Below, in pieces: positions 8,423-35,659 of a stretch of DNA of 64,000 nt (the first letter of the stretch is position 1; each line of letters opens with the position of its first letter). The notes below the pieces were generated by a model. It made no database searches. It saw nothing but the letters and a program-made list of their open reading frames with translations, and had not been told where the DNA came from. The stretch is from Candidatus Edwardsbacteria bacterium RifOxyA12_full_54_48 (GTDB lineage: Bacteria > Edwardsbacteria > AC1 > EtOH8), in contig MFFN01000002.1 in the NCBI GenBank assembly GCA_001777915.1, forward strand, positions 253,674 to 317,673, read 5' to 3'. Both the position numbers and the translations under genes were made by a program.

Positions 8423-8427
8423 CCCTG

Positions 8428-11556: not shown

Positions 11557-11583
11557 TATTGCACCTCTATTATAAATGTATTT

Positions 11584-11949: not shown

Positions 11950-11976
11950 GATCGTCGTTCCTTTATATATAGAAAA

Positions 11977-12426
11977 TTAAAAGATGCTGCCCGATTGCAT
12001 GATCAGGATGGTGTCCACCGTCCCGTTGGCGATGCTCACTATCAGCGGGTTGATGGAGCTGTTGTTCACCATCCCCGAGGGGTTGAAGCCGATGGTGAAA
12101 GAGGTGCTGTTGAAGCTGACGGAAGTTGGCAGGGTGTTGGTCTTGATGATGGCCTCCCCGGAATCGTAGGCGCCGTTCCTGGGGGTGCTGGTATCGATGA
12201 AGATCCGGTACTGCCGGCTGTTGATCACCCCCAACCCGTAATGGATGTCACGGCTCATGGCCATCTGCCGGATAAGGTTGAGATCCCCCACCAGCTGGGC
12301 CCTGGCGTCCTTGATCCTTCTGAAGGGCAGGTTGCGCACCAGGCCCGGCACAGTCAGGCCGGCCAGAATGCCGATGACCACGATAACCACCATCAGCTCG
12401 ATCAGGGTAAAACCATTCCTTTTCAT
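11977..12426 (-). CDS. FimT/GspH-type prepilin
   Basis: 149 residues. MKRNG|FTLIELMVVIVVIGILAG is a textbook prepilin leader and N-terminal helix with Glu5. The mature region (GDLNLIRQMAMSRDIHYGLG) fits FimT/GspH pseudopilins. It is the first gene of the four-pilin operon: GGAGG lies seven bases before the ATG, and a sigma-54 promoter lies just upstream. Confidence 0.9.
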   Translation of the reverse strand: MKRNGFTLIELMVVIVVIGILAGLTVPGLVRNLPFRRIKDARAQLVGDLNLIRQMAMSRDIHYGLGVINSRQYRIFIDTSTPRNGAYDSGEAIIKTNTLPTSVSFNSTSFTIGFNPSGMVNNSSINPLIVSIANGTVDTILIMQSGSIF

Positions 12427-12453
12427 TTTTCTACCTCCACCATATATTTATAA

Positions 12454-12467
12454 GCAATATTAATGCC
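12454..12467 (-). promoter_or_regulatory. sigma-54 (-24/-12) promoter of the pilin operon
   Basis: On the minus strand the sequence TGGCATTAATATTGCT contains GG and GC separated by exactly ten bases, matching the TGGCAC-N5-TTGC consensus. The predicted start falls about 12 bases downstream, in front of the FimT-like ATG at 12426. The adjacent gene encodes a sigma-54 activator, which supports the call. Confidence 0.85.
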
Positions 12468-12554
12468 ATTCCCGCTGTCAGCCATTTAACCTGTTGCATG
12501 ACAAGATAATGCAGATCAGGTAGTTTTTTAGACAACCTGCCATCCCCCGGAAAT

Positions 12555-12596
12555 ATTGTTACCCTGAGGTAACAGTCTTGCCCGGCCGGTAACAAT
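12555..12596 (-). promoter_or_regulatory. enhancer-like inverted repeats for the sigma-54 activator
   Basis: ATTGTTACC at 12555-12563 and GGTAACAAT at 12588-12596 form a perfect 9-bp inverted pair, with an extra half-site GGTAACA at 12568-12574. They lie about 115 bp upstream of the -24/-12 promoter and just after the activator gene's stop, a normal position for an enhancer. Confidence 0.7.
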
Positions 12597-12597
12597 C

Positions 12598-14850
12598 CTA
12601 GGCCTTGTCCAGGCCGTAATCCTTAATCTTTTTCAGCATCACCCGGTAGCTTATCTGCAGCCGGCGGGCGGCCTGGCTTTTATTGCCGCCGGTCTGGGCC
12701 AGCACCTTTTCGATCAGTTCGGCCTCGGCCCTGGCCGCCGCCCTGGCCGAAACCGACATTAAACCGGCGCTTCCATCGTTTGTTTCGATTTCGTCATCGG
12801 CCGGCAGCACGATGTTCAGGTCCTCCAGGCTTATTCTCCGGCCCCGGGCCACCAGCAGGGCCCTCTCGATGGCGTTCTCCAGTTCCCTGACGTTGCCCGG
12901 CCAGCGGTATTTCTTTAAGGCGGCCAGAGCCCCGCTATCGATGTCTTCGATCTTCTTTTTGTTTTTAAGGTTGTATTTTTTCAGAAAATGGTAGGCCAAT
13001 GGCTCGATATCATCAGGACGCCGGGCCAGCGGCGCCAGGTTGATGGGAAAAACATTCAGCCGGTAGAACAGGTCCTGCCTGAATTTCCCATCGGCCACCA
13101 TCCTGGCCAGGTCCTGGTTGCTGGCGGCTATCAGCCGGAGGTCGATCTTCATGCTTTTGGCGCCGCCCACCGGCGTGATCTCCTTCTCCTGGATGGCCCG
13201 CAGGATCTTGGGCTGCAGGCCCAGGGGGAGTTCCCCGATCTCGTCCAGAAAGAAACTGCCGCCCTCGGCCACTCTCAGCAGGCCGGGCTTATCGCGTCCG
13301 GCCCCGGTAAAGGCGCCCTTGACATAGCCGAACAGCTCAGATTCTAAAAGATTTTCCGGCAGGGCCGCGCAGTTGATGGTGATAAAAGGTTTCCCCGATC
13401 GGGGGCTCAGGCGGTGAACCTCCCTGGCGATCAGCTCCTTTCCGGTGCCGCTGTCCCCGGTTATCATCACCGTGCTGTCGGCCGGCGCCACTTTGGCCGC
13501 CAGGTTCAATGCTTCCTGCATGGCCGCCGAGGCAAAGACGATATCCGGCGATTTCGGCCGATCGCTTATTTGGTCCCGATAACTGAAATACTGGCCGTAA
13601 TCGGAGATCAACCTCTCCAGTTTTTCCAATTGCAGACCGACGGTTTTGTTGGAGGAATTCTCCAACGATTGTTTTATCTCCTGCAGGCCCGGTTGTATCT
13701 TGGCCAGAAGGTTCTGGGAGGCGCTTTCCAACAGGGCCGACTTCTCGGAAATATCCTCCAATTCCTCCATCCTCTGGACATCGGTAATGTCCGTCACCAC
13801 CAGGTTCTTCCCCATCTTTTGTCCGCTGGAATTTTTCAGCTCGCTGATCTCCACCTGAATGGTTCTGGCCCGGCCGGCGGGGCTTTCCAGTTCCTTGATC
13901 ATCAGCCGGGCGCCCCGGCCGATGGATTCCAGTTCCTGGCAGCTGAATATTTCGGAGCAGGATTCAATAGCCGCGATACCGAAGATGTCCCGGGCCGCAG
14001 GATTGCAGGCCAGCATTTTCCCGGCATTGTCAATGCTGATGATGCCCTTGTCCACGCTGGCCAATATCTGCCGGCTGAACTGTTCCAGGTCGTCGGCCCG
14101 TTCCCGCTCCTGGACATACAGCTCGTTCAGGTCCCGCCCCTTCCGCCTCAGTTCAGAGATCATCCCCTGATAGCTATCCATCACCAGCTCCACATCGGAG
14201 CCGGAAGGGATCTGCCCCCCGGAGTTATCCCGGGCCAGCCGGGCCATGCTCCGGAAGGGATTGAATATCAGCCGCAGATACAGAAACAGTCCTATCAATA
14301 CGGCCGGAAAGATCACGGCCGACCAGATATTTTGCATCCGGGCGCCGGATTCCAGCGAAGGCAGCAAACCGGCCGGGGCCAGCATGATCAGGATGTTTCC
14401 CGCCAGGCCCTCCCTGAGGGAATAGTTGACAAATCCGTAGTCCTGGCTGGGGTGGTAGGCCATTCTGCCGGGGGTCAATTTCCCCCAACTGGCCGCCGGT
14501 TCGGTGTCGGTCACGGCCGGGAAAAGGTAGGCTTCCAATAAATACCGGTTGCTGGCCGCCACCCACCGGCCGTTGCTGTCGGCCAGGCCGATGGCGCTGA
14601 CGCCGGAGATGCTGGCCAGGGCCGACCACTTGGCCTCGATGCTGTCCCCTGAAATATCCGGGTTTCCCCGATAGCTTTCCGCTGCCAGCCGGGCGGTGGC
14701 CGCCAAATGCCCCTCCATCTGCCGGCGGTATTGTCTGACCGAGTGGTTGAGCATTAAAATCGAAGCCAGGTTCACCACCGCCAAGATCATTACCAGCAGA
14801 AAACCGGCCAGGCGGGTCTCCCTCTCGTATTTTAACCATTTGCGCTTCAT
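12598..14850 (-). CDS. membrane-bound sigma-54-dependent transcriptional activator
   Basis: About 750 residues. A first transmembrane segment lies near residues 13-32, an extracytoplasmic sensor region follows to about 170, and a second membrane segment lies near 175-200. Then come a HAMP-like stretch, a PAS-type region (around 255-370), and the AAA+ domain with Walker A GDSGTGKE near 465 and the GAFTGA loop near 510. A Fis-type helix-turn-helix ends the protein (GGNKSQAARRLQISYRVMLKKI). There is no receiver domain, so it appears to sense directly and is not a two-component output. An in-frame GTG at 14868 is an alternative start; neither has a clear ribosome site. It probably drives the pilin operon downstream. 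Confidence 0.93.
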   Translation of the reverse strand: MKRKWLKYERETRLAGFLLVMILAVVNLASILMLNHSVRQYRRQMEGHLAATARLAAESYRGNPDISGDSIEAKWSALASISGVSAIGLADSNGRWVAASNRYLLEAYLFPAVTDTEPAASWGKLTPGRMAYHPSQDYGFVNYSLREGLAGNILIMLAPAGLLPSLESGARMQNIWSAVIFPAVLIGLFLYLRLIFNPFRSMARLARDNSGGQIPSGSDVELVMDSYQGMISELRRKGRDLNELYVQERERADDLEQFSRQILASVDKGIISIDNAGKMLACNPAARDIFGIAAIESCSEIFSCQELESIGRGARLMIKELESPAGRARTIQVEISELKNSSGQKMGKNLVVTDITDVQRMEELEDISEKSALLESASQNLLAKIQPGLQEIKQSLENSSNKTVGLQLEKLERLISDYGQYFSYRDQISDRPKSPDIVFASAAMQEALNLAAKVAPADSTVMITGDSGTGKELIAREVHRLSPRSGKPFITINCAALPENLLESELFGYVKGAFTGAGRDKPGLLRVAEGGSFFLDEIGELPLGLQPKILRAIQEKEITPVGGAKSMKIDLRLIAASNQDLARMVADGKFRQDLFYRLNVFPINLAPLARRPDDIEPLAYHFLKKYNLKNKKKIEDIDSGALAALKKYRWPGNVRELENAIERALLVARGRRISLEDLNIVLPADDEIETNDGSAGLMSVSARAAARAEAELIEKVLAQTGGNKSQAARRLQISYRVMLKKIKDYGLDKA

Positions 14851-24188: not shown

Positions 24189-25325
24189 TTACTTCATTGC
24201 CTCCTGGCGGGAAAACTCGCGTTCCAGGGCGAATTCGGCGATGGGCGGCTCTTTTGCCCCGCTCTTTATGAAGTCGGCCGCCTTTCGCCCGATGGCCGGA
24301 CCCAGCATGAAGCCATGCCCGCACATTCCGGCGATGACATAGAAGCCATCCAGGGGCGAGCGGTCCAGGATGGGGTTGCCGTCAGGGGTGTTCTCATAGC
24401 TTCCCGACCATTGGCGGATGACCTTGACCGGGCCCAGGGCGGGAATCAGCTTGAGCATCCTTTTGGGCATCTCCGACAAAAATTCATAGCTGGAATCGGT
24501 GGAATGTCCCGGAACGTTGGGAACCGGCGAGTAGCAGCCGATGAACTGCCCGTTGTGCCGGAACTGCTGGAAATAGCCGCCATCGGCCCGGTAATCCACC
24601 AGCATGGGGATGTTCAGATATTCCACCCCTTCGGTTATCAGGGCCTCATGCCGCTCCGGCTCCACCGGCACATCTATTCCGGCCATTTGACCGATCTCCC
24701 TGGACCAGGGCCCGGCGGCGTTGATGACGATATCGGCATGGTATTCGGTCCCCTGGGCGGTTTTGACCCCCTTGACCCGGCCTCCGCCCTGCATTATGGC
24801 GGTCACCTCGGTGAAAGTGTTTACCAGCCCGCCGCATGATCTGATCTTTTCAGCGTAGCCATTGACCACCGCAAAGGGGTAGGCCTGTCCGTCGGACGGG
24901 CAGTAGGAGCCGCCCAGCAGGCCGTCGATGTTCAGTCCCGGGGCAACCTGCCCGGCCTGGTAGGCATCCACCCAGCGGACATCCTTCAGGCCGAAACTCT
25001 GTTGAACGGCGATATTAGCCAGAAAAGCTTCTTTCTTCTCCGGGCTGTGGGCCAGGAACAGATACCCGCCGGGATGCCAATGGACATCCATCCCCAGTTC
25101 CTCTTTCATGCTGCTGAAATGTCTTACGCTCTCCTGCATCAGCTTGATGGACCCCTGGGAGGTGAACTGCTGGCGGATGCCGCCTATGCAGCGTCCGGTG
25201 GATCCGGCGCACAGGAAGCCCTTCTCGATCAGCCGGACCCCATATCCTGCCCGGGCCAGGTAGTACCCGGTGGCCGCTCCGACGATACCGCCACCGATGA
25301 TTATGATGTCGGCGCTCTTGGGCAT
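24189..25325 (-). CDS. FAD-dependent oxidoreductase, DAAO/sarcosine-oxidase-beta type
   Basis: 378 residues from ATG 25325. The N-terminal Rossmann motif ADIIIIGGGIVGAATGYYLA and the start of an Arg-rich substrate loop (STGRCIGGIRQQFT) are typical of DadA/SoxB/HcnC/OoxB-type subunits. It would oxidise an amino acid or imino acid and pass electrons to the iron-sulfur partners. The BFD-like small subunit ends two bases upstream. The matching FAD alpha-type subunit and ferredoxins lie 8-10 kb away at 32.9-35.7 kb, suggesting one split operon. Substrate unknown. Confidence 0.87.
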   Translation of the reverse strand: MPKSADIIIIGGGIVGAATGYYLARAGYGVRLIEKGFLCAGSTGRCIGGIRQQFTSQGSIKLMQESVRHFSSMKEELGMDVHWHPGGYLFLAHSPEKKEAFLANIAVQQSFGLKDVRWVDAYQAGQVAPGLNIDGLLGGSYCPSDGQAYPFAVVNGYAEKIRSCGGLVNTFTEVTAIMQGGGRVKGVKTAQGTEYHADIVINAAGPWSREIGQMAGIDVPVEPERHEALITEGVEYLNIPMLVDYRADGGYFQQFRHNGQFIGCYSPVPNVPGHSTDSSYEFLSEMPKRMLKLIPALGPVKVIRQWSGSYENTPDGNPILDRSPLDGFYVIAGMCGHGFMLGPAIGRKAADFIKSGAKEPPIAEFALEREFSRQEAMK

Positions 25326-25327
25326 TT

Positions 25328-25597
25328 TTATGAATCCGCCAGAATTTTCAGCGAGATGGGCTGCAGCGGCGAGCGCTGGGTAACGGCCTTTTGATCCTCC
25401 GGGGTCTGCCCCAGCTGGCGGGCCAGGATCTGATTTACCAGCCGGCGGCAGGTCCGCCCCTGGCAATGGCCCATGCCGGCCCTGGTCAGCCGTTTGACCT
25501 CGTCGGCTGTGGTCGCGCCTTTTTCAATCGCTTCCATGACCTGGGACTCGGTGATATCCTCGCAGCGGCAGATTATTTTGTCGTTGTTGTCCACCAT
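25328..25597 (-). CDS. BFD-like [2Fe-2S] protein, oxidoreductase small subunit
   Basis: 89 residues. CRCEDITESQVMEAIEKGAT and GMGHCQGRTCRR carry the four cysteines of a BFD-type [2Fe-2S] domain (CxC, then CxxxxC). Such domains are the small subunit of multi-subunit octopine/nopaline, D-hydroxyproline or L-proline dehydrogenases. The gene ends two bases before the DAAO-type subunit. It follows the last gene of membrane cassette copy B by 54 bp. Confidence 0.9.
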   Translation of the reverse strand: MVDNNDKIICRCEDITESQVMEAIEKGATTADEVKRLTRAGMGHCQGRTCRRLVNQILARQLGQTPEDQKAVTQRSPLQPISLKILADS

Positions 25598-25651: not shown

Positions 25652-26284
25652 TTATTTTATCAAATTTATCCAATCGGTCAGCAGGAACTGCACCCTACCG
25701 ATCAGCAATGATACCCGGGCCATGACGGTGTTGCCAAAACTGGCCCCGAAGCCGATCATGATGAACCAGATGCCGATGTTGGCCGATACTTTGAGGGCCC
25801 CCTTCTGCTCCCGGGAGAAGAAAAAATAACTCAAGGTGGTCAATACCCCAATAAAAGTGATCAGTCCCCAAACCAGACTCCAGCCCCCCAGTTTAAGGTT
25901 GGTGGCATCGGCGATAGCGCTCTGCATCTGCTTGAGGACATCGGCCTGGATGGTGGGGGCCAATGCCATTCCACTCCCGGTCCCCAGCAGCACCGCCAGG
26001 GGGATCAGGATCAGCCAGCCGGTTTTGGCGCTGAACCGGAAGAAGAACATCATTCCCAGAAGGCCGGGGATGATGAACCAGAAATTGTGCTGATGGAAAA
26101 TCGGCACGTAGAGGTTGGGAACGATGGCGTTGTTCCAGTAAATGGCCACGCCGTATCCGGCCGAGATCCCCACGAAAAGGTGCTCGGCAAAACGGTAGAA
26201 GGGATTCTCCTTGTATAAAAAGGAGAAGATACACAGGGTCAGTATGGCCGCGATCCATACCCAGAGATTGTTTGAAAATGTCAT
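25652..26284 (-). CDS. membrane cassette copy B, subunit 4 (about 6 TM)
   Basis: 210 residues, not recognised. About six transmembrane helices. It is clearly paralogous to the 29061-29693 gene: both start with LWVWIAA/IWIWIAA, contain FYRFAEHLF/FRFAEHLF and YWNN, VLKQMQ/VLKQIQ, and end with GIWFIMIGFGASFGNTVMAR and LLTDWINLIK (copy A: GFGATFGYTVMAR, LFTDWIHLIK). The loop residues after the TM1 are conserved. It is the last gene of the second tandem four-gene cassette. Function unknown; presumably an integral subunit of one complex. Confidence 0.85.
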   Translation of the reverse strand: MTFSNNLWVWIAAILTLCIFSFLYKENPFYRFAEHLFVGISAGYGVAIYWNNAIVPNLYVPIFHQHNFWFIIPGLLGMMFFFRFSAKTGWLILIPLAVLLGTGSGMALAPTIQADVLKQMQSAIADATNLKLGGWSLVWGLITFIGVLTTLSYFFFSREQKGALKVSANIGIWFIMIGFGASFGNTVMARVSLLIGRVQFLLTDWINLIK

Positions 26285-26294
26285 TTGGCTCTCC

Positions 26295-27143
26295 TTACTT
26301 CTTGCTCTGGTTGTGCCGGGTCACCAGGTAGCCGATATTGCCCAGGATGATGAACAGCATCAACAGCAGGTGGACGATGGAAACGGCGTTCATCCCCTTG
26401 GTGGCCACCGGAGCGGCGCTGGAATAGCCGTTCTTCTGGTTCAGGTATTCATACTCGCTGGCCCCCTTCATGCCGTTAAGCAGTCCCACCAGCTGGCCGG
26501 CCTGCAGGAAGGGATAGTAGTCGGCGGTGCTGACCGCGGTGCAGCCGGCGCCCACGTTGGCATGATAGCGGGTATGGGCATAGAGAATCCAGCTCTGGGT
26601 GACGGCACTGCCGGCAATGGAGACCACCAGGGGCACATCGGCATAGTTGCGGACGCCGGCCATCATCGGCAGGCTGTCCAGCGGGGTGCCGTAGAAATCG
26701 GTGGGAAAGGCCTGGCGGAAGTTTTCTCCGATGGACATCATCACGATGGAATAGCCCGGCTTGAAGCCCAGGAAAACGTAATCCCGGCCGTTCTGGGCCC
26801 CGTACTCCGGGGCGATCTTCTGCAGGGCCGTTTCCGAAAGAGCAGCGCCGTTGGGGTCCAGGGTCAGGATGGCTATCCGGATCTTCTTGGCAAAACAGTG
26901 ACGGATGACCGCCTCCAGCATGGGCTGCAGCTCGGGCATCATGGAGGGGCTGTAATCGGCCGCTATCAATATCGGCTGGTTCTGGGGAGGTATCTTATCT
27001 ATGAAGTCGTACAGTTTGATGGTATATTTCCCCGGCAGAGTGGGCAGTTTCATGGGTATCACCAGGGGAAAGATCACCGCCAGGGCCACCAGCAGGAAGA
27101 TGTACCGGCGGTTTATCTTGGTCAGGTTCTCTAATATCTTCAT
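26295..27143 (-). CDS. membrane cassette copy B, subunit 3 (TM-Rossmann-like-TM)
   Basis: 282 residues, not recognised. A transmembrane segment near 15-32 (FLLVALAVIFPLVIPM) is followed by an alternating beta/alpha domain: ILIAADYSPSMMPELQPMLE, then AVIRHCFAKKIRIAILTLDP, then GRDYVFLGFKPGYSIVMMSI. A second transmembrane segment ends the protein (VHLLLMLFIILGNIGYLVTR). The paralog at 29734-30585 shares RHCFA, the motif PTDFYGTPLDSLPMM (copy A: PLDYYQTPYDSLPMM) and the C-terminal ILGNIGY. Its ATG overlaps the preceding stop by four bases. The domain is probably extracytoplasmic. Confidence 0.82.
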   Translation of the reverse strand: MKILENLTKINRRYIFLLVALAVIFPLVIPMKLPTLPGKYTIKLYDFIDKIPPQNQPILIAADYSPSMMPELQPMLEAVIRHCFAKKIRIAILTLDPNGAALSETALQKIAPEYGAQNGRDYVFLGFKPGYSIVMMSIGENFRQAFPTDFYGTPLDSLPMMAGVRNYADVPLVVSIAGSAVTQSWILYAHTRYHANVGAGCTAVSTADYYPFLQAGQLVGLLNGMKGASEYEYLNQKNGYSSAAPVATKGMNAVSIVHLLLMLFIILGNIGYLVTRHNQSKK

Positions 27144-27778
27144 TTGCCGCCTCCTCCCAGCCAGCTGCGCTCAATGCCCAGGATTATCTTCAGCGAGGTA
27201 GCCGTCATCCCCAGGCCGATCCCGAAAAGGATCCCCCGCTTGGCTGCCATGTTGGGGACCATCATGATCCATTCGGCGATGTCCGGTATCTTGGACCAGA
27301 TCATGGAGCCGAAGGGGATCACTCCCAGCATCACTATAAAGCCTGAGATCAGCAGCAGGGCCGCCTCCTGGGAACGGGCCCGGAAGGCCCGGTAGGCGGC
27401 CGAGGCCATATAGAAAGCCAGAATGGCGAACATGGCCGAATCCATGGGGGCCTGGACATAGAGGAACAGGGTGTGGTACAGCTCGCCCAGCGACTCCAGT
27501 CCCTTTACCCTCCCGAAGATGCCCAGCAGGGCCATCACCACCAGGGCCATCAGGGTCACGATGCTGTTCCACCAATGCGGCTTGCGCCTTCTGACCTTAA
27601 GCAGGTGATGGTTGAACAGGCTGCCGACGGCCAGCACAATGGCAAAGGCGCTGATGACCAGGGTCCACTGCAGGGTGGTCTGGTAGATGTTGGTTGATAT
27701 CTGGCTGGGGATGAAGAATTGGAAGAAGAAGAATATCCCCAGGGTCAGTACGATTATCAAAGGTATCTGTCTTTTCAT
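27140..27778 (-). CDS. membrane cassette copy B, subunit 2 (about 6 TM)
   Basis: 212 residues, not recognised, with about six hydrophobic helices. It is paralogous to 30587-31213: both have FFIPSQIS/FFIPSRPS near residue 20, AILAFYMASAAYRAFRARSQ (copy A: SASYRAFRAKST), IPNMAAKRGI or VPNMAAKRGI, and a C-terminal TSLKIILGIER. Only the long cytosolic loop and helix 3 differ much. The ATG has GGAG upstream. It overlaps the following gene by four bases, indicating coupling. Confidence 0.85.
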   Translation of the reverse strand: MKRQIPLIIVLTLGIFFFFQFFIPSQISTNIYQTTLQWTLVISAFAIVLAVGSLFNHHLLKVRRRKPHWWNSIVTLMALVVMALLGIFGRVKGLESLGELYHTLFLYVQAPMDSAMFAILAFYMASAAYRAFRARSQEAALLLISGFIVMLGVIPFGSMIWSKIPDIAEWIMMVPNMAAKRGILFGIGLGMTATSLKIILGIERSWLGGGGK

Positions 27779-27787
27779 TTTTTCTCC

Positions 27788-28972
27788 TTAACCTACCTTA
27801 AGCATTTGCAGGATGATTTCCCTGATCCCGGGGGCGACCAGCGATACGGCCAGGCCGATTATCAGCAGCAGCACAATGACGGCCTTGCTCCAATCCTGGC
27901 CCTTGAGGGTGCCCAGCAGCATCGGCTCCTTGGACAGGTAGGCCGAGGCGGCATACAACTCCTCTCCGATCAGGGTGTAATCGCAGGCGGTGATGAAGAA
28001 CGGCAGCTGGTGAATGGCGTCTGTGCCGGCTATCTGGATGGCCCCGGTCTCGGCCCCGGTCTCGGCCAGGATCAGGGATTCCGCCCAGAACATGCCCATG
28101 AAAAAATTGGTGGCCGGTTTTTCCCGGGCCATGATGCCGTCCACCCCCGAGGCGAAGCCCATCTGGCTGTCGGTCAGGTAGAACACCGAATCGTGGTTAT
28201 AGGCGTCGGGGCGGCCGATCTCGTTGTAGGCCTCCTTGACGATCTCCTGGGCCACGGTGAACACCACCGGATCGCGGTTGGGCACCAGCAGCGGGGTGTC
28301 GTATTCGGCGGTCTTCTTGGCCACCTGTCCCAGGATGTTCAGGGCGGCGATGGTGGCCACATCCGAGATGCTAGAAAGACCCGGAACGTAAAGAATGGGG
28401 CGGCCCATCTCGGTGGCCCGTCCCACCGCCTCCTCCACCGCCGCCAGCCCGGCGATGCGGCGGATGAACAGGCTCTGGCCGCTCTTGGCCCGGCCGATGA
28501 ATATCACCACGATAAGGGTGAATAGGATGCAGCCGATCAGAGCGTTGATGCGCATGGTGTTGAACCACTGCTCCGCAGACCTGGCCGAGACAGACACCAG
28601 GCTGTAGGCCTGGCTCTCCCGGCCCACCGCCTTGACCTGGTAGAAATAATCCTTCCCGTTGTCCGGGACATCCTGGTCGTCAAAACTGGTGAAACCGTAG
28701 GGCACATAACCCACTTTGATAAATTCCCCCTCCGGTGTTTCCGACCGCAGGACCTCATAGCCCTCGATCATTTTTTTGACCTCGTCCGGCGACGCCTGCC
28801 AGCTAACAGTGATGGCATGTCCGGCATCATTGGGGGTATCGGCAGCCTTGATGTCGGACGGCGGGGCAATGGCCGGCACGGTAACTGTCGGTTCGGCCGG
28901 TGCCGCTGGAGCTGCGCAAACCACAGCTGCCCAGAACATCACCAACAGCAGGCCGGTGATTTTAAGCCTCAT
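27788..28972 (-). CDS. membrane cassette copy B, subunit 1: FnIII + DUF6754-like protein
   Basis: 394 residues from ATG 28972, which has GGAGAAG five bases upstream; the longer frame to 29038 lacks support. A signal peptide precedes a Pro/Ala-rich linker and a fibronectin-III-like domain (about 45-140, KVGYVPYGFTSFDDQD, YFYQVKAVGRESQAYS). A TM segment near 170 leads to a cytosolic domain of about 190 residues starting RRIAGLAAVEEAVGRATEMG and holding ACDYTLIGEELYAASAYLSK, then a C-terminal TM. The cytosolic part resembles what I recall as DUF6754; not checked by search. The copy A partner is 31220-32356. Confidence 0.85.
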   Translation of the reverse strand: MRLKITGLLLVMFWAAVVCAAPAAPAEPTVTVPAIAPPSDIKAADTPNDAGHAITVSWQASPDEVKKMIEGYEVLRSETPEGEFIKVGYVPYGFTSFDDQDVPDNGKDYFYQVKAVGRESQAYSLVSVSARSAEQWFNTMRINALIGCILFTLIVVIFIGRAKSGQSLFIRRIAGLAAVEEAVGRATEMGRPILYVPGLSSISDVATIAALNILGQVAKKTAEYDTPLLVPNRDPVVFTVAQEIVKEAYNEIGRPDAYNHDSVFYLTDSQMGFASGVDGIMAREKPATNFFMGMFWAESLILAETGAETGAIQIAGTDAIHQLPFFITACDYTLIGEELYAASAYLSKEPMLLGTLKGQDWSKAVIVLLLIIGLAVSLVAPGIREIILQMLKVG

Positions 28973-29060
28973 CAATCTTCTCCGTTTAATAGTTTTAGCT
29001 GATTTTAAACAATTATATCCTTTATATCCTTCGAACATTTAAAACTGCTCTTGGCCCGGC

Positions 29061-29693
29061 TTATTTTATCAGATGTATCCAATCGGTGAACAGGAACTGC
29101 ATCCGGGCGATCAGCAGGGATACCCGGGCCATCACGGTATAGCCGAAGGTGGCCCCGAAGCCGATCATCACGAACCAGATGCCGACGTTGGCGGTCACCT
29201 TGATCGGTCCCTTATGCTCCCGGGAGAAGTAGAAATAGGTGATGGTGCTGATCACCCCCGCCATCACCAGCAGGCCCACCATCAGGCCCTTCTGGGGGTC
29301 CCAGATGTTGCTTAGCATGGAGGTGTTGATCATGGTGCCCTGGATCTGTTTTAAAACGTCGGCCTCAAAGGTGACCGGGATGGACATCCCGTTCCAGAAG
29401 CCCAGGCTGACCGCGATGGGTATCAGGATCAGGTGGTTAAGTTTGGGAATGAACCTGAAAAAGTACATCATCCCGATGGCCATGGGGATCAGGGTTATCC
29501 AACGATGGTTGGCCAAGGGGGTGACGATGTAGGGCAGGGTGTAATTGTTCCAGTACAGAACGATGAAATAGCCCACCGAAAGGCCGGTGAAAAGGTGTTC
29601 GGCGAATCTGAAGGCCGGGTTATCCTTGTAAAGATAGGAGAAAATGGCCAGGCTTAAAAGGGCCGCTATCCATATCCAGATATTTGTGCTCAT
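29061..29693 (-). CDS. membrane cassette copy A, subunit 4 (about 6 TM)
   Basis: 210 residues, not recognised; same length as its copy B paralog (25652-26284). It has about six transmembrane helices. Conserved blocks: NIWIWIAALLSLAIF start, PAFRFAEHLFTGLSVGY, VLKQIQGTMINTS, FYFSREHKGPIKVTAN and the final GYTVMARVSLLIARMQFLFT. It is the last gene of cassette copy A; 88 bp separate it from copy B's first start codon. Confidence 0.85.
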   Translation of the reverse strand: MSTNIWIWIAALLSLAIFSYLYKDNPAFRFAEHLFTGLSVGYFIVLYWNNYTLPYIVTPLANHRWITLIPMAIGMMYFFRFIPKLNHLILIPIAVSLGFWNGMSIPVTFEADVLKQIQGTMINTSMLSNIWDPQKGLMVGLLVMAGVISTITYFYFSREHKGPIKVTANVGIWFVMIGFGATFGYTVMARVSLLIARMQFLFTDWIHLIK

Positions 29694-29733
29694 CTTTATA
29701 TCCTTAGTTTTGAAAGTTCTGAAAATGACGGGG

Positions 29734-30585
29734 TTATTTTTTCTGCTCGATCTTTTTGGAGATGAAATATCCGATATTCCCCAGGATGATCAGCAGGATG
29801 ATCAGCAGGTGCGAATAGGCAATGGCCCCCATGGCCTTGCTGGCTACATCCGGTTTGTGGTAATACCCCGCATCAACGATCATTTGTTCGTATTCCGCCC
29901 CGCCCTTCATGCCGCCCAGCTGTCCGATAAACTGCTTGGTCTGCAGGAAGGGATAATTATCCGGAGCCATCACCGCGGTCTGCCCGGCCCCGATCTTAAC
30001 GCCGAATTTAGTACCGGCAAAAATCATCCAGCTTACCGGATAGGTGGAGCCGGCCAGGGACAGCACCATGGCGATGTCATCGTAGTTGTGAATGTTTTTC
30101 ATCATGGGAAGGCTGTCGTAGGGTGTCTGGTAATAATCCAGCGGCAGGGCCTTTTTGACATTGACCCCCATCTGCAGCATGATGATGGTGCCCCCGGGCC
30201 TGAAACCAAAATAGCAGTAATCCTGGCCCAATTTTTTATCGTACTCCCTGGCCACCTGGGTAATGATCCCTTCGCCTATGGCGTCGCCCTGAGGAGCCAG
30301 GGACATCCCCACAACCTTTACCCCCCGGGCAAAACAATGCCGCAGCACCGCCCGGGCCATGGGATCCAGCTCGGCGGCCACCTGGGGATCGTAATCGAAG
30401 GATACCAGCAAGGAACGCCCATTGGGTTCGATTTGATCTACATAATCATAAATACCCTTGGTGGCGGAATCAACATAGAACCGGGGTTTTATGTTGAACA
30501 GCAGCGGCACCAAAATAGACAACAGCAGCAGGGCGAATACGATCCGGCGATCAAGCTTTCCGAACTTGGCTAAAAACTTAAGCAT
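29734..30585 (-). CDS. membrane cassette copy A, subunit 3 (TM-Rossmann-like-TM)
   Basis: 283 residues from ATG 30585; an upstream in-frame start would overlap the preceding gene. Two terminal transmembrane segments (IVFALLLLSILVPLLF, LLIILLIILGNIGYFI) enclose a beta/alpha domain with SLLVSFDYDPQVAAELDPMA, RHCFARGVKVVGMSLAP and YCYFGFRPGGTIIMLQMG. Closely paralogous to 26295-27143 in order and length. The domain resembles an alpha/beta sandwich without visible catalytic motif. Not recognised. Confidence 0.82.
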   Translation of the reverse strand: MLKFLAKFGKLDRRIVFALLLLSILVPLLFNIKPRFYVDSATKGIYDYVDQIEPNGRSLLVSFDYDPQVAAELDPMARAVLRHCFARGVKVVGMSLAPQGDAIGEGIITQVAREYDKKLGQDYCYFGFRPGGTIIMLQMGVNVKKALPLDYYQTPYDSLPMMKNIHNYDDIAMVLSLAGSTYPVSWMIFAGTKFGVKIGAGQTAVMAPDNYPFLQTKQFIGQLGGMKGGAEYEQMIVDAGYYHKPDVASKAMGAIAYSHLLIILLIILGNIGYFISKKIEQKK

Positions 30586-30586
30586 A

Positions 30587-31213
30587 TCAGTGCCCCCCCA
30601 TCCAGTTGCGTTCAATTCCCAGAATGATCTTCAGGGAGGTGGCGGTGATGCCCAGCCCGATGCCGAAGGTGATGCCCCGTTTGGCGGCCATATTGGGGAT
30701 CAGCATCAGCCATTCCGAAAACTTGGGCAGGCCGCTCCAGATGGCGGCCCCCTGCGGGATCAGGCCCAGCATCACGATGAAAGCCGAGATCAGCAGCATG
30801 GTGGCCTCGGTGGATTTGGCCCGGAAGGCCCGGTAGCTGGCCGAGGCCATGTAAAAGGCCAGGATGGCGAACATGGTGGCCTGCATGGGGGCCAGGGCGT
30901 AATTGAACACCTTCATGTAAAAACTGCCCTCCCGGGTGCCGCTGAACACCGCCGCCAGGATCATGAACAACGCCGCTCCCAGATAGACCAGGCTGTAGCC
31001 CCAGCCCTTGGTCTTGCGGGAGATCTTCAGGATATGGTGGCGCACCAAGCTGTCCACCGCGATCACCGAGGCGAAGACAAAAAGGATCAGATCCCATTCG
31101 ATCATGGTATTGAAGGCTATCTGCGACGGCCGGCTGGGGATGAAGAACTGGATGATGAAGGCCACTCCCAACACGAAGACTATGCCCAGGGGAATATTTT
31201 TTTTCATATTCAT
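30587..31213 (-). CDS. membrane cassette copy A, subunit 2 (about 6 TM)
   Basis: 208 residues, not recognised. About six transmembrane helices. It shares FFIPSRPS, MFAILAFYMASASYRAFRAK, IPNMAAKRGITFGIGLGITA and the TSLKIILGIERNWMGG end with the copy B protein at 27140-27778. It lies six bases after subunit 1 and one base before the subunit 3 start. Confidence 0.85.
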   Translation of the reverse strand: MNMKKNIPLGIVFVLGVAFIIQFFIPSRPSQIAFNTMIEWDLILFVFASVIAVDSLVRHHILKISRKTKGWGYSLVYLGAALFMILAAVFSGTREGSFYMKVFNYALAPMQATMFAILAFYMASASYRAFRAKSTEATMLLISAFIVMLGLIPQGAAIWSGLPKFSEWLMLIPNMAAKRGITFGIGLGITATSLKIILGIERNWMGGH

Positions 31214-31219
31214 TTACCT

Positions 31220-32356
31220 TTAGTGAATTCTGAATAGGTTGTAGATAAGATCGGAACGAAAGATCAGGGCCGTCAGGGTGCCCAGCAGGACGAACAGGAT
31301 GATCACCAGTTTGCAGGCATCCTGCCCCTTCAGGCTTCCCACCAGCAGCGGTTCCTTGGATAGGTAGGCCGAGGCGGCGTACAGCTCCTCGCCGATCAGG
31401 GTGTAATCGCAGGCGGTGATGAAGAACGGCAGCTGGGAGATCTGGTCGGTCCCGGCTATCTGGATGGCCCCGGTGGCGGCGCCCGATTCGGCCAGCACCA
31501 GGGATTCGGCCGCATAGTAACCCATGAAGAAGTTGGTGGCCGGCTTCTCGCGGACCATTATCCCGGCCAGGGCCGCGGCGTATCCCATCTGGTCCTGGGT
31601 GATGAAGTATACCGAGTCCTCCTTGAACAGATCCGGGCGGCCCGCGCTCTTGTAGCCCTCCTTGACCATCTCCCGGGCCACCGCATGAACCACCGGGTCG
31701 GCGGTGGGAACGGTCAGCGGGGTATCATACTCGGCGGTCTTCTTGGCCACCTGCCCCAGGATGTTCAGGGAAGCCACGGTGGATATGGAATCTATCCATC
31801 CGATGCCGTTGCAGTAAAGTATCGGCCGCCCCATCTCGGTGGCCCGGCCTATGGCCTCCTCCACCGCATCCAGGCCGGCAATACGCCGGATGAACAGCTT
31901 GCCCTTGCGGGCCCAGTAGATATACAAAAGGGTGATGGCGATGAAAAGAAAGGTGCCGAACAGGGTGTTCAGCTTGCCGGTGTTGAACCAGCTCTGGGTG
32001 GTGGCTATCGGCCCGGCTGTAGCGCTTACCGCACTGTCCCCGTTTTCGTTGATGGCCACCACCTTATAATAATAATCCCGACCGATGAGCTCGACGGAAT
32101 TGTCCTCGTGCTCAACGGCCCCCTTGGGGACCCAGGCGATCATCCGGAAGGAATCGTTTGGCAGCATGGACCGCTCGATATTGTAGCCCATGAACCCCGG
32201 CTCATTTTCCGAGGGGGATGATTGCCATTCCATGATGACGATGGAACCGTCATCATTGGGAGCGTCAGTCAGCTTGACATCGATCGGCGGCTCCAGCCCC
32301 AAAGCCAGAACGGGCAGCAGCAGGCAGGCCATCAGTACCATTTTCAGTTTGCCCAT
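31220..32356 (-). CDS. membrane cassette copy A, subunit 1: FnIII + DUF6754-like protein
   Basis: 378 residues. Signal peptide (MGKLKMVLMACLLLPVLALG), FnIII-like domain about 22-115 (VKLTDAPNDDGSIVIMEWQS), a TM segment near 130-150, a cytosolic domain starting RRIAGLDAVEEAIGRATEMG and ending about 345, then a C-terminal TM. It shares long identical runs with copy B (KPATNFFMG, LPFFITACDYTLIGEELYAA). This is the first gene of cassette copy A, so the FnIII region outside and a conserved cytosolic domain inside would link signals or substrates across the membrane. Confidence 0.86.
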   Translation of the reverse strand: MGKLKMVLMACLLLPVLALGLEPPIDVKLTDAPNDDGSIVIMEWQSSPSENEPGFMGYNIERSMLPNDSFRMIAWVPKGAVEHEDNSVELIGRDYYYKVVAINENGDSAVSATAGPIATTQSWFNTGKLNTLFGTFLFIAITLLYIYWARKGKLFIRRIAGLDAVEEAIGRATEMGRPILYCNGIGWIDSISTVASLNILGQVAKKTAEYDTPLTVPTADPVVHAVAREMVKEGYKSAGRPDLFKEDSVYFITQDQMGYAAALAGIMVREKPATNFFMGYYAAESLVLAESGAATGAIQIAGTDQISQLPFFITACDYTLIGEELYAASAYLSKEPLLVGSLKGQDACKLVIILFVLLGTLTALIFRSDLIYNLFRIH

Positions 32357-32435: not shown

Positions 32436-32828
32436 TTACAAAATTAGCCGTTTAATCCCATTTTTGATAATGGGTACGTTGACATTAATAAGGAATTCAA
32501 GGCGTTTTCCGGTCATCTTTAGATGACTGAGCAACTGTGCTTCCCAGACGGGATTTACTTGATCAACAGCCTTCAGCTCGCAGACAACTAGATCATCCAC
32601 TAGTACATCAAGCCGCAATCCTTCTTCAAATATTATTCCGTCATATTTTACCGGGATATCTATTTGCCGTTTTGATTGAAAACCCATTTTAGACAATTCA
32701 TGGCAAAAGCATACTTCATAAACCTTTTCCAGCAATCCTGATCCTAATTTCCTGTGGACCTGATATGCAGCATCCACGATACCCTTCGCTATTTTCTCTT
32801 CAGATACTGAAAGAGGTTTAAACCCCAT
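32436..32828 (-). CDS. GxxExxY protein (PD-(D/E)XK-like), cassette 2
   Basis: 130 residues. GSGLLEKVYEVCFCHELSKM carries the GxxExxY signature, followed by SKRQIDIPVKYDGIIFEEGL and RLDVLVDDLVVCELKAVDQV, with the D...E-x-K pattern also seen in cassette 1. The C-terminus GKRLEFLINVNVPIIKNGI is shared with cassette 1 (GKKLGYLLNFGEALMKNGI). Flanked on both sides by inverted arms of the same repeat; it separates the ferredoxin gene from the duplicated membrane cassettes. Function unknown; probably the same element type as cassette 1 but clearly diverged. Confidence 0.88.
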   Translation of the reverse strand: MGFKPLSVSEEKIAKGIVDAAYQVHRKLGSGLLEKVYEVCFCHELSKMGFQSKRQIDIPVKYDGIIFEEGLRLDVLVDDLVVCELKAVDQVNPVWEAQLLSHLKMTGKRLEFLINVNVPIIKNGIKRLIL

Positions 32829-32867: not shown

Positions 32868-33383
32868 TCAAGATAGCAGTTTAAAGAACCTTACATCCTT
32901 TTCCTTGCCCTTGGGGATGGTCAGGGTCACCAGCGGGGTCTTCCCCTGGGCCTTGGTATTCAACACTTTGATAACTTTGGCCTGGCAGCATTCCTTTCCT
33001 GCCCGGTCCAGGGCAGCGACCAGATCCCCCTTCTCCGGCAGGGGCAGGAACTCGTAGGGCATGGTGACGGCGCTTTCGGCATCCGAATATGCCGCGTCGA
33101 TCACGAAGATGGCCAGGCCCGGGCAGCGGGAGACGCAGACGGTACAGCCGTTGCATTTGTTATGATCTGCCTGTGGCAGGGCGTTGATATTATCGCCCAC
33201 CGATATGGCGTTGCGGGGGCAGCTGGTCTCGCAGGGGTTGCAGGGGATCTCCTGGAAGCATTCCAGCACCGCCACCGGGCCTTTCTTCAGCCGTTCCTCG
33301 GAAGGCCAAGCGGTCTGGATGTCCGAGGCGTCGGCCAGGCCGGTCGTTTTCAGTTTATCGGATATCATTAAAGTTTCCAGCAT
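32868..33383 (-). CDS. 4Fe-4S ferredoxin-type subunit of the split oxidoreductase
   Basis: 171 residues. Two cysteine clusters lie about residues 42-56 (ECFQEIPCNPCETSCP) and 77-88 (CNGCTVCVSRCPG), the second a perfect CxxCxxCxxxCP. The C-terminal half (AKVIKVLNTKAQGKTPLVTL) is not Fe-S. This protein type is found next to D-hydroxyproline/proline dehydrogenase-like gene sets and would pass electrons to or from the flavin subunits. The FAD alpha-type and 2Fe-2S genes are 0.8-2.3 kb upstream; the BFD and beta subunits are 7 kb downstream. Confidence 0.85.
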   Translation of the reverse strand: MLETLMISDKLKTTGLADASDIQTAWPSEERLKKGPVAVLECFQEIPCNPCETSCPRNAISVGDNINALPQADHNKCNGCTVCVSRCPGLAIFVIDAAYSDAESAVTMPYEFLPLPEKGDLVAALDRAGKECCQAKVIKVLNTKAQGKTPLVTLTIPKGKEKDVRFFKLLS

Positions 33384-33433: not shown

Positions 33434-33892
33434 TCATTTATCTTTTATAAGCGGCATCAGATTTTCAAGATCAACTTTATCTTGTAACCGGTTGGCAGCG
33501 CGTTTGGCACTGATCAAGTCCTTAAGACCAATAAAATAGGTATTGGTTTTGCCGAATTTACTTTTCTTTCTGTTGGGCCATGCCTTTTTAAAAGTCAATC
33601 CTGCAATGTCGGTAAGAATATCAATCCGGACCGGTTCAACCCCTATCTGGAAAATTGTGCCTTTTATCGCCAGATCGTTTATACTGATTTTATTTAGCGG
33701 GGCGCCGAAATCGGACAAACATTTATATACCTTACCTGCATTTTCAGCCGTCGGTTCTATCCATATATCCATGTCTTTGGTATACCGGGGTTGAGCATAA
33801 TAGGAAACAGCAAAGGCTCCAATCAAAAGATATTTGACCTTACCGGTGTTGAAAATGCGTAATAGATCTTCGTAATCTTGGTATATCTCCAT
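33434..33892 (-). CDS. nucleotidyltransferase (DUF6036/AbiEii-like)
   Basis: 152 residues. LLIGAFAVSYYAQPRYTKDM followed by DIWIEPTAEN matches the G-x-x-A...R-x-T-x-D-x-DI pattern of minimal nucleotidyltransferase-fold proteins. The C-terminal FIGLKDLISAKRAANRLQDK is common in this group. Such proteins pair with small upstream genes and are considered toxin-antitoxin-like, but no activity is shown here. It overlaps the upstream gene by 53 bp. AT-rich relative to neighbours, so possibly acquired. Confidence 0.8.
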   Translation of the reverse strand: MEIYQDYEDLLRIFNTGKVKYLLIGAFAVSYYAQPRYTKDMDIWIEPTAENAGKVYKCLSDFGAPLNKISINDLAIKGTIFQIGVEPVRIDILTDIAGLTFKKAWPNRKKSKFGKTNTYFIGLKDLISAKRAANRLQDKVDLENLMPLIKDK

Positions 33893-34224: not shown

Positions 34225-35316
34225 TCAAACAGTTTTGATCCTGCACTCTTTCAGTTTGCACTTCCCTTCCCGGGCCTTCTGTCCGAACGGCCCGGCCCTC
34301 AATCCGGCCAGCCGGCAGGCGGTGTCGTCAATCCGGCATTGCAGTTCCTTTGAGTCGCCCTTCAGGTATTTTACCGCCCCCAGCCCCGCCAGTTCGCCCT
34401 CCAGCATGGCGGTGGATGCCTCTTCGATCCCGCTGACATCGCCGGCGGTGAATATCCCCGGGACGGTGGTCATCATCAGATCGTCGTGCCAGGCCACCTG
34501 GCCCCCCAGTTCCGGAATGTAGTTCAGCTGACAGCCGGCCTGCCATAAAAGTTCGGTCAAGGGGGAAAGCCCCACCGCCAGGCAGATGGTGTCCACCTCC
34601 AGGGTCTGCTGGGTGTCCCCTAGGGTCTGCCATTTATCGTCAATTCTGGATATGACCGCCCCGCTGACCATATCCCCTCCCAAAGCATTTAGGATGGTGT
34701 GGCGGGTTAAAATGGGCACCCCCGCCCGGGCGATCTTGGAGGCGTGCACCAGATAGCCTCCGATCTTGGGCAGGCCCTCGATGATGGCCTTGACCTGCAC
34801 CCCGGCCTGCATCAACTGGTAGGAAACGATAAGCCCGATGTTGCCGGAGCCCACCATCAGCACGCTGTTACCCGGCTTGATGCCGTAGACGTTCATCAGG
34901 GTCTGCACCGCCCCGGCTCCGTAGACACCGGGCAGGTCGCTGCCGGGAAAGGATACGAAATTCTCCGAAGCTCCGGTGGCCACCAGAACGGCCCTGGGCT
35001 TGAGCGGTGTGACCTTCTCGTTCTGCAGCACCGCCACCGTCCCGTCGGAATAATATCCCACCGCCGAGGCCTGGCGCTCTATTTGGATGCCACGCTTCCC
35101 CATCTCCTGCTCCAGCTCCAGGCCTATCTCAAAACCCCGGGTTCCGGCCCGCTCGGCCTTGGAACCGAAGAACATGTGGGTCTGCTTGATCAGCTGGCCC
35201 CCAATGGCCTGGTTCTCGTCAACTATCAGCGGCTCCAGGCCGAACTCCGAGGCCGACAGCGCCGCCATCAGCCCGGCCGGGCCGCCCCCGATGATAAGGA
35301 AGTCTGTATTTGTCAT
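34225..35316 (-). CDS. NAD(P)/FAD-dependent oxidoreductase, alpha-type subunit
   Basis: 363 residues. MTNTDFLIIGGGPAGLMAAL is the FAD-binding Rossmann motif and SVLMVGSGNIGLIVSYQLMQ the second dinucleotide motif. TVPGIFTAGDVSGIEEA is the C-terminal FAD motif. It matches the SoxA/HcnB/OoxA-type subunit that partners a 2Fe-2S subunit and a DAAO-type subunit. The Cys-rich end (CRIDDTACRL, CKLKECR) may hold an extra cluster. The 2Fe-2S gene is 31 bp upstream. Confidence 0.86.
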   Translation of the reverse strand: MTNTDFLIIGGGPAGLMAALSASEFGLEPLIVDENQAIGGQLIKQTHMFFGSKAERAGTRGFEIGLELEQEMGKRGIQIERQASAVGYYSDGTVAVLQNEKVTPLKPRAVLVATGASENFVSFPGSDLPGVYGAGAVQTLMNVYGIKPGNSVLMVGSGNIGLIVSYQLMQAGVQVKAIIEGLPKIGGYLVHASKIARAGVPILTRHTILNALGGDMVSGAVISRIDDKWQTLGDTQQTLEVDTICLAVGLSPLTELLWQAGCQLNYIPELGGQVAWHDDLMMTTVPGIFTAGDVSGIEEASTAMLEGELAGLGAVKYLKGDSKELQCRIDDTACRLAGLRAGPFGQKAREGKCKLKECRIKTV

Positions 35317-35347: not shown

Positions 35348-35659
35348 TCAGTTTATTGCGATCCGGCCCCGCCCCTTTTGCCGCCTTACCTGCATTCCCT
35401 CGCGGATGGGGGTGACGCAGGAGAAGACATTGGGCACCCCGTCCACCTCCATCAGGCAGGATGAGCACTTGCCCACCGCACAAAAAAAGCCCCGGGGTCT
35501 GTCCAGTTTTACGCTGTGGCGCAGCACCTTGATCCCGGCGGCATGCAGAGCAGCGGCAATGGGTTCTCCCTGGTACCCTTCCACCGGCTGCCCTTCGAAA
35601 TAAAATTTTATCTTGGCCCCTTTTTTGAATTCCAGGATGGGATGCTTGTCTATTCTCAT
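35348..35659 (-). CDS. (2Fe-2S)-binding subunit (SoxX/HcnA-like)
   Basis: 103 residues. FFCAVGKCSSC and the later FSCVTP give the four cysteine ligands of a 2Fe-2S domain with C-x4-C-x2-C spacing. EGQPVEGYQGEPIAAALHAA is the beta-grasp core. It is the first gene of the upstream block of the split oxidoreductase operon. Likely an electron-transfer subunit of an amino-acid dehydrogenase. Confidence 0.86.
   Translation of the reverse strand: MRIDKHPILEFKKGAKIKFYFEGQPVEGYQGEPIAAALHAAGIKVLRHSVKLDRPRGFFCAVGKCSSCLMEVDGVPNVFSCVTPIREGMQVRRQKGRGRIAIN

Follow-up and report, generated by a model that had tools for sequence, protein, structure and literature searches.

A duplicated four-gene membrane module with a DUF6754 subunit in Candidatus Edwardsbacteria and its probable association with a shared MutL-type ATPase core

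DUF6754 (PF20539) is entered in Pfam as a domain of unknown function, without partner subunits and without the soluble proteins that are called MutL, c6 and c9 in the following. Known relatives of MutL/GlmL are accessory or reactivation factors of mutases, not transport motors. In ECF-type transporters, one soluble ATPase set of the P-loop ABC type serves several membrane units, GldF/GldG-type pairs combine a polytopic subunit with a subunit composed of a TM segment, an outside alpha/beta domain and a further TM segment, and the ntp V-ATPase operon of Enterococcus hirae includes a K+ transporter gene, ntpJ. None of the papers searched mentions DUF6754, PF20539 or PF13941 by name, and searches that also covered GlmL/MutL returned nothing on the system analysed here, which comprises seven protein families, is spread over many bacterial families and is apparently undescribed. 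Moreover, we know of no described precedent for an ASKHA ATPase driving membrane modules as a shared engine.

The window, a stretch of 64,000 nucleotides from contig MFFN01000002.1 of Candidatus Edwardsbacteria bacterium RifOxyA12_full_54_48, carries on its minus strand (25652–32356) two collinear blocks of the genes S1-S2-S3-S4 (Table 1). This two-copy cassette had been described in an earlier note made from the sequence alone, and all eight ORFs were found in place, with the same subunit lengths of 378/394, 208/212, 283/282 and 210/210 aa (S1 to S4, copy A/copy B) and with the runs reported as identical between the copies, namely ACDYTLIGEELYAASAYLSK in S1 and TSLKIILGIER in S2. BLASTP of copy A against copy B revealed identities of 57% over 348 columns for S1, 57% for S2, 42% for S3 and 55% for S4, with E-values of 1e-78 to 1e-141, i.e., far beyond chance. 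Gene spacing is tight within the blocks, S2b and S3b sharing 4 bases. The source genome harbors two further modules elsewhere, which were not visible to the earlier reader.

Table 1. Genes of the two tandem modules and of the surrounding operon, with positions in the window.
Feature	Position	Strand	Description	Evidence
S1a	31220..32356	(-)	signal peptide, FnIII, TM, cytosolic (predicted) DUF6754 domain, TM	PF20539 E=1.4e-113; profile A1
S2a	30587..31213	(-)	six-TM subunit	iterated search, profile A2; hydrophobic segments
S3a	29734..30585	(-)	TM, outside (predicted) alpha/beta domain, TM	profile A3; model of copy-B homologue
S4a	29061..29693	(-)	polytopic membrane subunit	profile A4; hydrophobic segments
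S1b	27788..28972	(-)	signal peptide, FnIII, TM, cytosolic (predicted) DUF6754 domain, TM	PF20539 E=1e-121; AlphaFold pLDDT 90.6
S2b	27140..27778	(-)	six-TM subunit	iterated search, profile A2; hydrophobic segments
S3b	26295..27143	(-)	TM, outside (predicted) alpha/beta domain, TM	AlphaFold model pLDDT 93.8
S4b	25652..26284	(-)	polytopic membrane subunit	iterated search, profile A4; hydrophobic segments
Fer2_4 2Fe-2S protein	35348..35659	(-)	host operon	PF13510 E=3.8e-32
FAD/NAD(P) oxidoreductase	34225..35316	(-)	host operon	PF07992 E=7e-31
4Fe-4S protein	32868..33383	(-)	directly upstream of modules in relatives	Fer4 families; kept at L005, L006, L008, L092, L111
BFD-like 2Fe-2S / sarcosine oxidase A3 protein	25328..25597	(-)	directly downstream of modules	PF04324, PF17806; kept in relatives
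DAO-type FAD oxidoreductase	24189..25325	(-)	last of host operon	PF01266 E=7e-74; kept in relatives

In a sample of 193 genomes centred on that of the window, in which frequencies do not represent a share of all bacteria, S1 was found in 56 (about three in ten), S2 in exactly the same 56, S3 in 57 and S4 in 59 (co-occurrence Fisher p < 1e-44, which is only nominal since the sampled genomes share ancestry). A complete ordered S1-S2-S3-S4 block was headed by 99 of the 112 S1 genes with room downstream, and 114 distinct full modules were obtained from 95 loci. The neighbourhood survey thus did not return single genes in unrelated contexts in most genomes, the pattern named beforehand as speaking against a complex. 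Divergence was correlated between the subunits as well (r 0.77–0.86). Together with the conserved gene order, the co-occurrence and the duplication as a block, this supports the proposal of one membrane complex in several variants, and S1–S4 probably associate physically as one heteromeric membrane complex.

Both S1 copies are full-length members of DUF6754 (379 and 405 bits compared to a curated cut-off of 27), so that the segment previously called DUF6754-like turned out to be a true PF20539 match in both copies and not just a similar sequence. The proposed layouts, FnIII, TM, alpha/beta domain and TM for S1 and TM, alpha/beta domain and TM for S3, are visible in the AlphaFold models of the copy B proteins, and the charges flanking the TM segments place the alpha/beta domain of S1 putatively in the cytosol and that of S3 putatively outside. 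For S4, the polytopic nature was retained, but instead of about six TM segments the profile gave four clear hydrophobic ones. A PDB sequence search with profiles of S1–S4 resulted in FnIII matches only for S1 and in nothing credible for S2–S4, and FnIII also filled the match lists of Foldseek and VIA-align when S1 was queried together with this domain; the DUF6754 domain comprises residues 165–349, approximately, of S1b. The best structural match of the outside domain of S3 was the CODH epsilon subunit (Z 9.6, rmsd 3.1, 145 residues), but many unrelated Rossmann proteins score close, and its structural neighbourhood is generic Rossmann-like without a standout. Profile–profile comparison of S1 with S3 and of S2 with S4 showed no relation, and neither a conserved Cys or His cluster nor a redox-cofactor motif was detected in S1–S4.

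In agreement with the first reading, no known transporter family explains S1–S4: Pfam scans member by member revealed scattered weak matches only for S2–S4, and at E-values up to 0.05 no family was common to more than 10 of 77 S2 or more than 4 of 73 S4 members, which leaves room for a distant fold relation. Nor was a defence or synthase family found that explains them. PADLOC models gave no match for S1–S4, MutL and c6, while for c9 the matches were short and weak (E about 1e-3 at best), and on this outcome anti-phage defence was rejected. The likeness to GldF/GldG is one of layout, S2, S3 and S4 showing no Pfam match to those families. With ECF-type transporters the system shares only the logic of one soluble ATPase set and several membrane units; while ECF and ABC transporters possess a P-loop ABC ATPase, the ATPase here is of the ASKHA type, and no sequence relation was found. 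An ABC or ECF transporter was rejected, as the Walker A pattern is essentially absent (0 of 134 S3, 0 of 129 S4, 1 of 135 S2, 5 of 149 S1, 0 of 21 MutL, and 2 of 23 c6 ORFs).

Probably the most informative feature is the shared core of c9, MutL, and c6, the soluble partner set of the module, which the earlier reader had missed. Neighbourhoods of the type c9-MutL-c6-S1-S2-S3-S4 were identified at loci titled Edwardsbacteria, Zixibacteria, Coatesbacteria and Poribacteria and at others. c6 was found in 54 of the 193 genomes, all within the 56 having S1; according to the coordinates, the module adjoins c6 in 21 of these 54, and at L112–L115 MutL and c6 are fused (952–1,015 residues). Neither c6 nor MutL was detected for the modules in G067 and G086, and MutL was not detected in G016. 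MutL represents a GlmL-like ASKHA ATPase that matches PF13941 over its length (E 9e-126), but with 226.9 bits it stays well below the NCBIfam equivalog cut-off of 475 (TIGR01319). An assignment as the methylaspartate mutase accessory protein GlmL was rejected because almost all of these genomes lack glutamate mutase E (PF06368 was strong in only 3 of 193, namely G087, G116, and G128, with only G128 among the 56). c6 has a barrel-sandwich domain in common with RnfC/NqrA (RnfC_N match in 13 of 16 members), besides a middle region of its own and a KOW-like end; the other domains of RnfC/NqrA were not found, so that identity with these proteins was dismissed, the barrel-sandwich part alone matching. 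Lipoylation of c6 by a neighbouring LplA-like protein was also rejected, because the barrel-sandwich hairpin has no invariant lysine (alignment A5). Altogether, S1–S4, c9, MutL, and c6 very likely constitute one functional system.

At several WOR-3 loci, S1 occurs without S2–S4. In the 6.4-Mb single-contig genome G144, the subunits are encoded at scattered sites, with all of them retained and c6 and S1 still linked.

Genomes harbor 1–7 S1 copies (mean 2.2), while nearly all genomes with c6 possess one free-standing copy of it. This asymmetry, up to seven modules versus normally one c6, suggests exchangeable modules on a shared core, and we consider it likely that each four-gene block is such a membrane module serving a single c9-MutL-c6 core. 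Across modules, median pairwise identity amounted to 70% for DUF6754, 31% for FnIII, 43% for the predicted outside domain of S3, 49% for S2, and 51% for S4. L120 carries extra S3 copies (48–71% identical) beside single S1, S2, and S4 genes, which would fit a recognition role for S3.

The tandem modules of the window interrupt a FAD/Fe-S operon of the sarcosine-oxidase type, with Fer4 on one side and BFD-DAO on the other, and the placement is the same at those related tandem loci for which the flanks were readable. As a general rule, the link to electron transfer suggested in the earlier note found no support: other modules are encoded within a V-ATPase operon, adjacent to MutL-c6, or next to unrelated genes, and S1–S4 display no conserved redox motif. 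At nine loci of Edwardsbacteria-type genomes, a module resides between subunits C and F of the V/A-ATPase operon. Two module lineages occupy this slot (L085–L091 and L107/L109), of which L107/L109 grouped with the MutL-type lineage in each subunit tree (support 0.999–1.0). Co-encoded only in Edwardsbacteria-type genomes, the module is not a general V-ATPase component; outside the window's phylum V-ATPase occurs, yet modules are not near its genes. V-ATPase as a universal partner was rejected: outside that phylum, it is present in 16 of 46 genomes with modules and in 41 of 137 without (odds ratio 1.25, p 0.58). Roadblock/LC7-like and DUF4388 neighbours were identified at L084, L085, L077, and L079, with Robl_LC7 matches below the Pfam cut-off. 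No obvious substrate genes were seen near most WOR-3 modules, and for the majority of modules a multi-subunit client is missing from the neighbourhood. In Edwardsbacteria-type genomes, the specific wiring into V/A-ATPase and FAD/Fe-S operons suggests that each module is dedicated to one particular pathway or complex.

What the sequences show is the four-subunit unit, the association of seven families, the unequal copy numbers, the way conservation is distributed, and the operon contexts; that the proteins form a complex physically, are coupled to ATP, dock at DUF6754, and carry out transport is our inference. As a mechanism, we tentatively prefer an ATP-gated transport-type machine, though with clear reservations. 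MutL, as a GlmL-type ASKHA-fold ATPase, would bind and hydrolyze ATP, and c6, which adjoins or is fused to MutL and adjoins S1, would relay its state to S1 at the near-invariant, putatively cytosolic face of DUF6754. The membrane part would consist of S2 and S4, which would undergo a conformational change, while the outside domain of S3 together with the FnIII domain of S1 may recognize what is handled. A shared engine would thus work with interchangeable membrane units, similar to ECF logic. The precedent of ntpJ, together with a module in the V-ATPase operon, may favor transport, while S2 and S4 show no consistent transport family, relatives of MutL are accessory proteins, and no substrate is indicated. 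S1 genes without S2–S4, the modules of G067 and G086 without detected c6 or MutL, G016 without detected MutL, the lack of obvious substrate genes around most WOR-3 modules, and the confinement of the V-ATPase link to the window's phylum also speak against the model as a whole. The combined explanation, S1–S4 modules with a shared c9-MutL-c6 core acting as a transport-type machine, we regard as somewhat short of an even chance; a novel type of energised membrane system, in which c6, c9, and the GlmL-like ASKHA ATPase together drive several exchangeable four-subunit modules, each with its own partner (e.g., V-ATPase or an amino-acid-type dehydrogenase), is possible but rather doubtful.

An unlikely yet serious alternative is an assembly or maintenance machine, in which each module would act as a platform in the membrane and, jointly with a chaperone-like MutL, help to assemble or repair one particular multi-subunit complex, e.g., V-ATPase or the FAD/Fe-S dehydrogenase. 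Modules inside two multi-subunit enzyme operons of Edwardsbacteria-type genomes, two module lineages in one V-ATPase slot, and an ATPase from the GlmL accessory family are consistent with it, but it accounts poorly for the modules away from V-ATPase genes in other phyla and for the majority without a multi-subunit client. Less probable again is a sensor or signalling complex, with FnIII and S3 sensing the envelope and DUF6754, MutL, c6, and Roadblock/LC7 relaying inside. Variable outside domains and a near-invariant inside domain would suit such a role, as would the Roadblock/LC7-like and DUF4388 neighbours; however, a kinase, cyclase, transcription-factor, or receiver domain was found in none of the seven families, and the LC7 link appears in few lineages, by matches under the cut-off.

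A redox or ion-pumping complex with the link to electron transfer that the earlier note had suggested appears improbable. The FAD/Fe-S operon around related tandem modules, the RnfC/NqrA-type domain of c6, and another module in a V-ATPase operon point towards it, but S1–S4 lack a conserved cluster of Cys or His residues, no module elsewhere was found flanked by the Fe-S and flavin genes, and the other RnfC domains were not detected in c6. That unrelated membrane genes became adjacent and duplicated by chance is scarcely credible: lone S1 genes at some WOR-3 loci would agree with it, while the identical S1/S2 and near-identical S3/S4 phyletic sets and the gene order, which was maintained for 99 of 112 S1 genes, contradict it.

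The four-subunit set thus occurs in 56 of the 193 sampled genomes, nearly all with the MutL/c6 core and with up to seven modules. If true, the shared core would represent a new way to couple an ATPase to membrane complexes, and it would open a first way to the function of several uncharacterized families that many bacterial lineages retain as a set.

The eight ORFs that the earlier note had read as two collinear copies (A and B) of a four-gene membrane module, S1 to S4, were found on the minus strand at exactly the coordinates assigned to them, with identities between the copies of 57% for S1, 57% for S2, 42% for S3, and 55% for S4. The DUF6754-like segment recognized there also held, both S1 proteins being strong members of PF20539, while family searches with S2, S3, and S4 gave no significant Pfam or NCBIfam match. 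In the AlphaFold model of S1b (pLDDT 90.6), an N-terminal hydrophobic stretch is followed by FnIII and then by the alpha/beta DUF6754 domain, with one TM helix before the latter and another after it; that of S3b (pLDDT 93.8) displays an alpha/beta domain between two TM segments. Flanking charges, together with hydropathy, predict a cytosolic DUF6754 domain and an S3 domain on the outside. About six TM segments had been proposed each for S2 and S4: the hydrophobic segments numbered six in S2, whereas in S4 four were clear, which is compatible with six. Since FnIII is missing from several divergent S1 proteins and larger in others, it is an accessory part. No cofactor pattern is conserved across the members of S1–S4, so that electron transfer, to which a link had been suggested as possible, is unlikely to run through the module itself.

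The genome (G000; 2.74 Mb, 9 contigs; window at G000:C2:253674-317673) holds two further modules besides the tandem pair, namely at locus L084 on contig C4, downstream of the soluble genes c9, MutL, and c6, and at L085 on contig C1, within a V/A-ATPase operon. The tandem pair represents a block duplication within the Edwardsbacteria-type group, copy-A and copy-B clades being common to loci L005, L006, and L111. In relatives, the modules lie in the same FAD/Fe-S operon, flanked by its Fer4 gene on one side and its BFD-DAO genes on the other; L008/L092, two handles for one contig region from two collections, has three of them. In the window, this operon is interrupted by two other genes (Table).

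Scanning of 79 loci with iterated profiles (record titles: WOR-3, Stahlbacteria, TA06, Zixiibacteriota, Coatesbacteria, Latescibacterota, Poribacteria, Hydrothermota, and unnamed bacteria) revealed four families clean-cut from one another and a single gene order throughout. After later loci were added (149 S1 genes), S2, S3, and S4 came next in order in 99 of the 112 S1 genes with downstream room, as expected for the proposed cassette. Gene contexts come from MAGs, and some genomes are present in both collections used. Since the sample of loci was anchored on S1, each subunit was searched separately in the same 193 genomes, resulting in 56 positives for S1, 56 for S2, 57 for S3, and 59 for S4. 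The S2 set was identical to the S1 set; that of S3 additionally contained G102, and that of S4 G102, G096, and a marginal G050. Fisher p values for co-occurrence are nominal, because the genomes are related; most positives outside the window's phylum, however, come from different families (tool numbering). Inter-module distances correlated between subunits (0.77 to 0.86), and the module family was present in 10/10 examined genomes of the window's phylum. This gene set may previously have been picked up elsewhere, in a survey of unknown gene families. In the divergent cluster of G102, DUF6754 was not matched, and the places of S1 and MutL are taken by two uncharacterised genes of 243 and 485 aa.

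In several lineages, the modules come with three soluble families, namely c9 of about 125 aa, MutL (PF13941, E 9e-126), and a c6 protein of about 375 aa, whose barrel-sandwich domain matched RnfC_N in 13/16 members. Among the 193 genomes, c6 was found in 54, every one among the 56 with S1, and MutL of this subfamily, a few exceptions aside, tracked this pattern: G016 gave no MutL match, while the incomplete genome G096 revealed MutL and S4, with S1 not detected. In G144 (single contig of 6.4 Mb), c6 adjoins S1, and MutL (~0.79 Mb), S4 (~2.30), S2 (~3.48), and S3 (~3.53) are scattered; the operon is thus broken up with all members retained. In G017 and G128, MutL and c6 are located downstream of S4, not upstream of S1, and the set remains clustered. 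MutL-c6 fusions (about 950–1,015 residues) occurred at four loci. As glutamate mutase E was found in only three of 193 genomes, the core MutL is not a glutamate-mutase accessory protein; it also scored far under the GlmL equivalog cut-off. The middle region of c6 (profile positions 166–236) resembled the regulator of ribonuclease activity A (RraA) weakly (E 0.01). Lipoate-ligase-like genes were observed after or near the module in three lineages.

Coordinates of features in the window and at sampled loci (L; genomes, G)
Feature	Locus	Coordinates	Remark
PDDEXK_3 gene	window	32436-32828	upstream of S1a; no counterpart at L005, L006
Nucleotidyltransferase-like gene	window	33434-33892	upstream of S1a; sequence reading
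MutL-c6 fusion	L112	7132-10089	no module genes on stretch examined
MutL-c6 fusion	L113	7237-10095	no module genes on stretch examined
MutL-c6 fusion	L114	894-3932	no module genes on stretch examined
MutL-c6 fusion	L115	8878-11925	extra N-terminal HTH match; no module genes on stretch examined
Lipoate-ligase-like gene	L032	9329-10054	sequence reading
Lipoate-ligase-like gene	L057	17391-18197	sequence reading
Lipoate-ligase-like gene	L084	14132-14908	sequence reading
DUF4388 and Roadblock/LC7-like proteins	L084	15006-17338	downstream of module
DUF4388 and Roadblock/LC7-like proteins	L077	3663-5810	downstream of module
DUF4388 and Roadblock/LC7-like proteins	L079	10060-12234	downstream of module
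S2 of C4-type module in two frames	L094 (G001)	about 10843-11500	frameshift or sequence error
Module with four S3 genes	L120	6263-13208	S3 48 to 71% identical; S1, S2, S4 single
Divergent cluster	L121 (G102)	7148-12659	c9-, S2-, S3-, S4-like genes

At nine loci of Edwardsbacteria-type genomes (L085–L091, L107, L109), the slot that separates V-ATPase subunits C (PF01992) and F (PF01990) is occupied by a module. At L107 and L109, this module belongs to the lineage elsewhere found beside MutL-c6 (support 0.999 to 1.0 in the trees of all four subunits taken singly and in the concatenated one); this change could have occurred by displacement or recombination, a module being kept in the slot both ways. 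A Roadblock/LC7-like gene comes first in the operon at most of the nine loci, and a second such set follows S4 only with the first V-slot lineage (L085–L091), all with Pfam Robl_LC7 scores under the cut-off. Similar proteins accompany a DUF4388 protein in two lineages (Table). Outside the window's phylum, V-ATPase was present in 16/46 module-bearing vs 41/137 other genomes (p 0.58); the two are thus not associated there, and V-ATPase is not the general client.

The number of S1 genes per genome ranged from one to seven, averaging 2.2, but free-standing c6 was present in one copy in nearly all genomes. Median pairwise identity between modules was 70% for DUF6754, 31% for FnIII, 30 to 36% for the S1 TM helices, 43% for the S3 outside domain, 49% for S2, and 51% for S4; sampling was biased toward similar S1 proteins, which leaves the contrast within S1 unaffected. 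From this we infer that the conserved DUF6754 is the surface at which a shared core docks on all modules.

As the function of this system, we favor a transport-type cycle over two serious rivals, a machine for assembly or maintenance and a sensor complex. Indirect support comes from the ATPase family, the contrast in conservation between inside and outside, the multiplication of S3, one core for many modules, and their placement in dehydrogenase and V-ATPase operons. For the latter, the ntp operon of E. hirae, which includes an ion-transporter gene, offers a precedent. In such a cycle, the ATP state of MutL would be relayed via c6 to DUF6754, which would pass it on to S2/S4, while recognition would be performed by the outside domains, S3 and FnIII. 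The best-supported part, judged from sequence, is a putative four-subunit membrane unit served by a shared soluble ATPase set.
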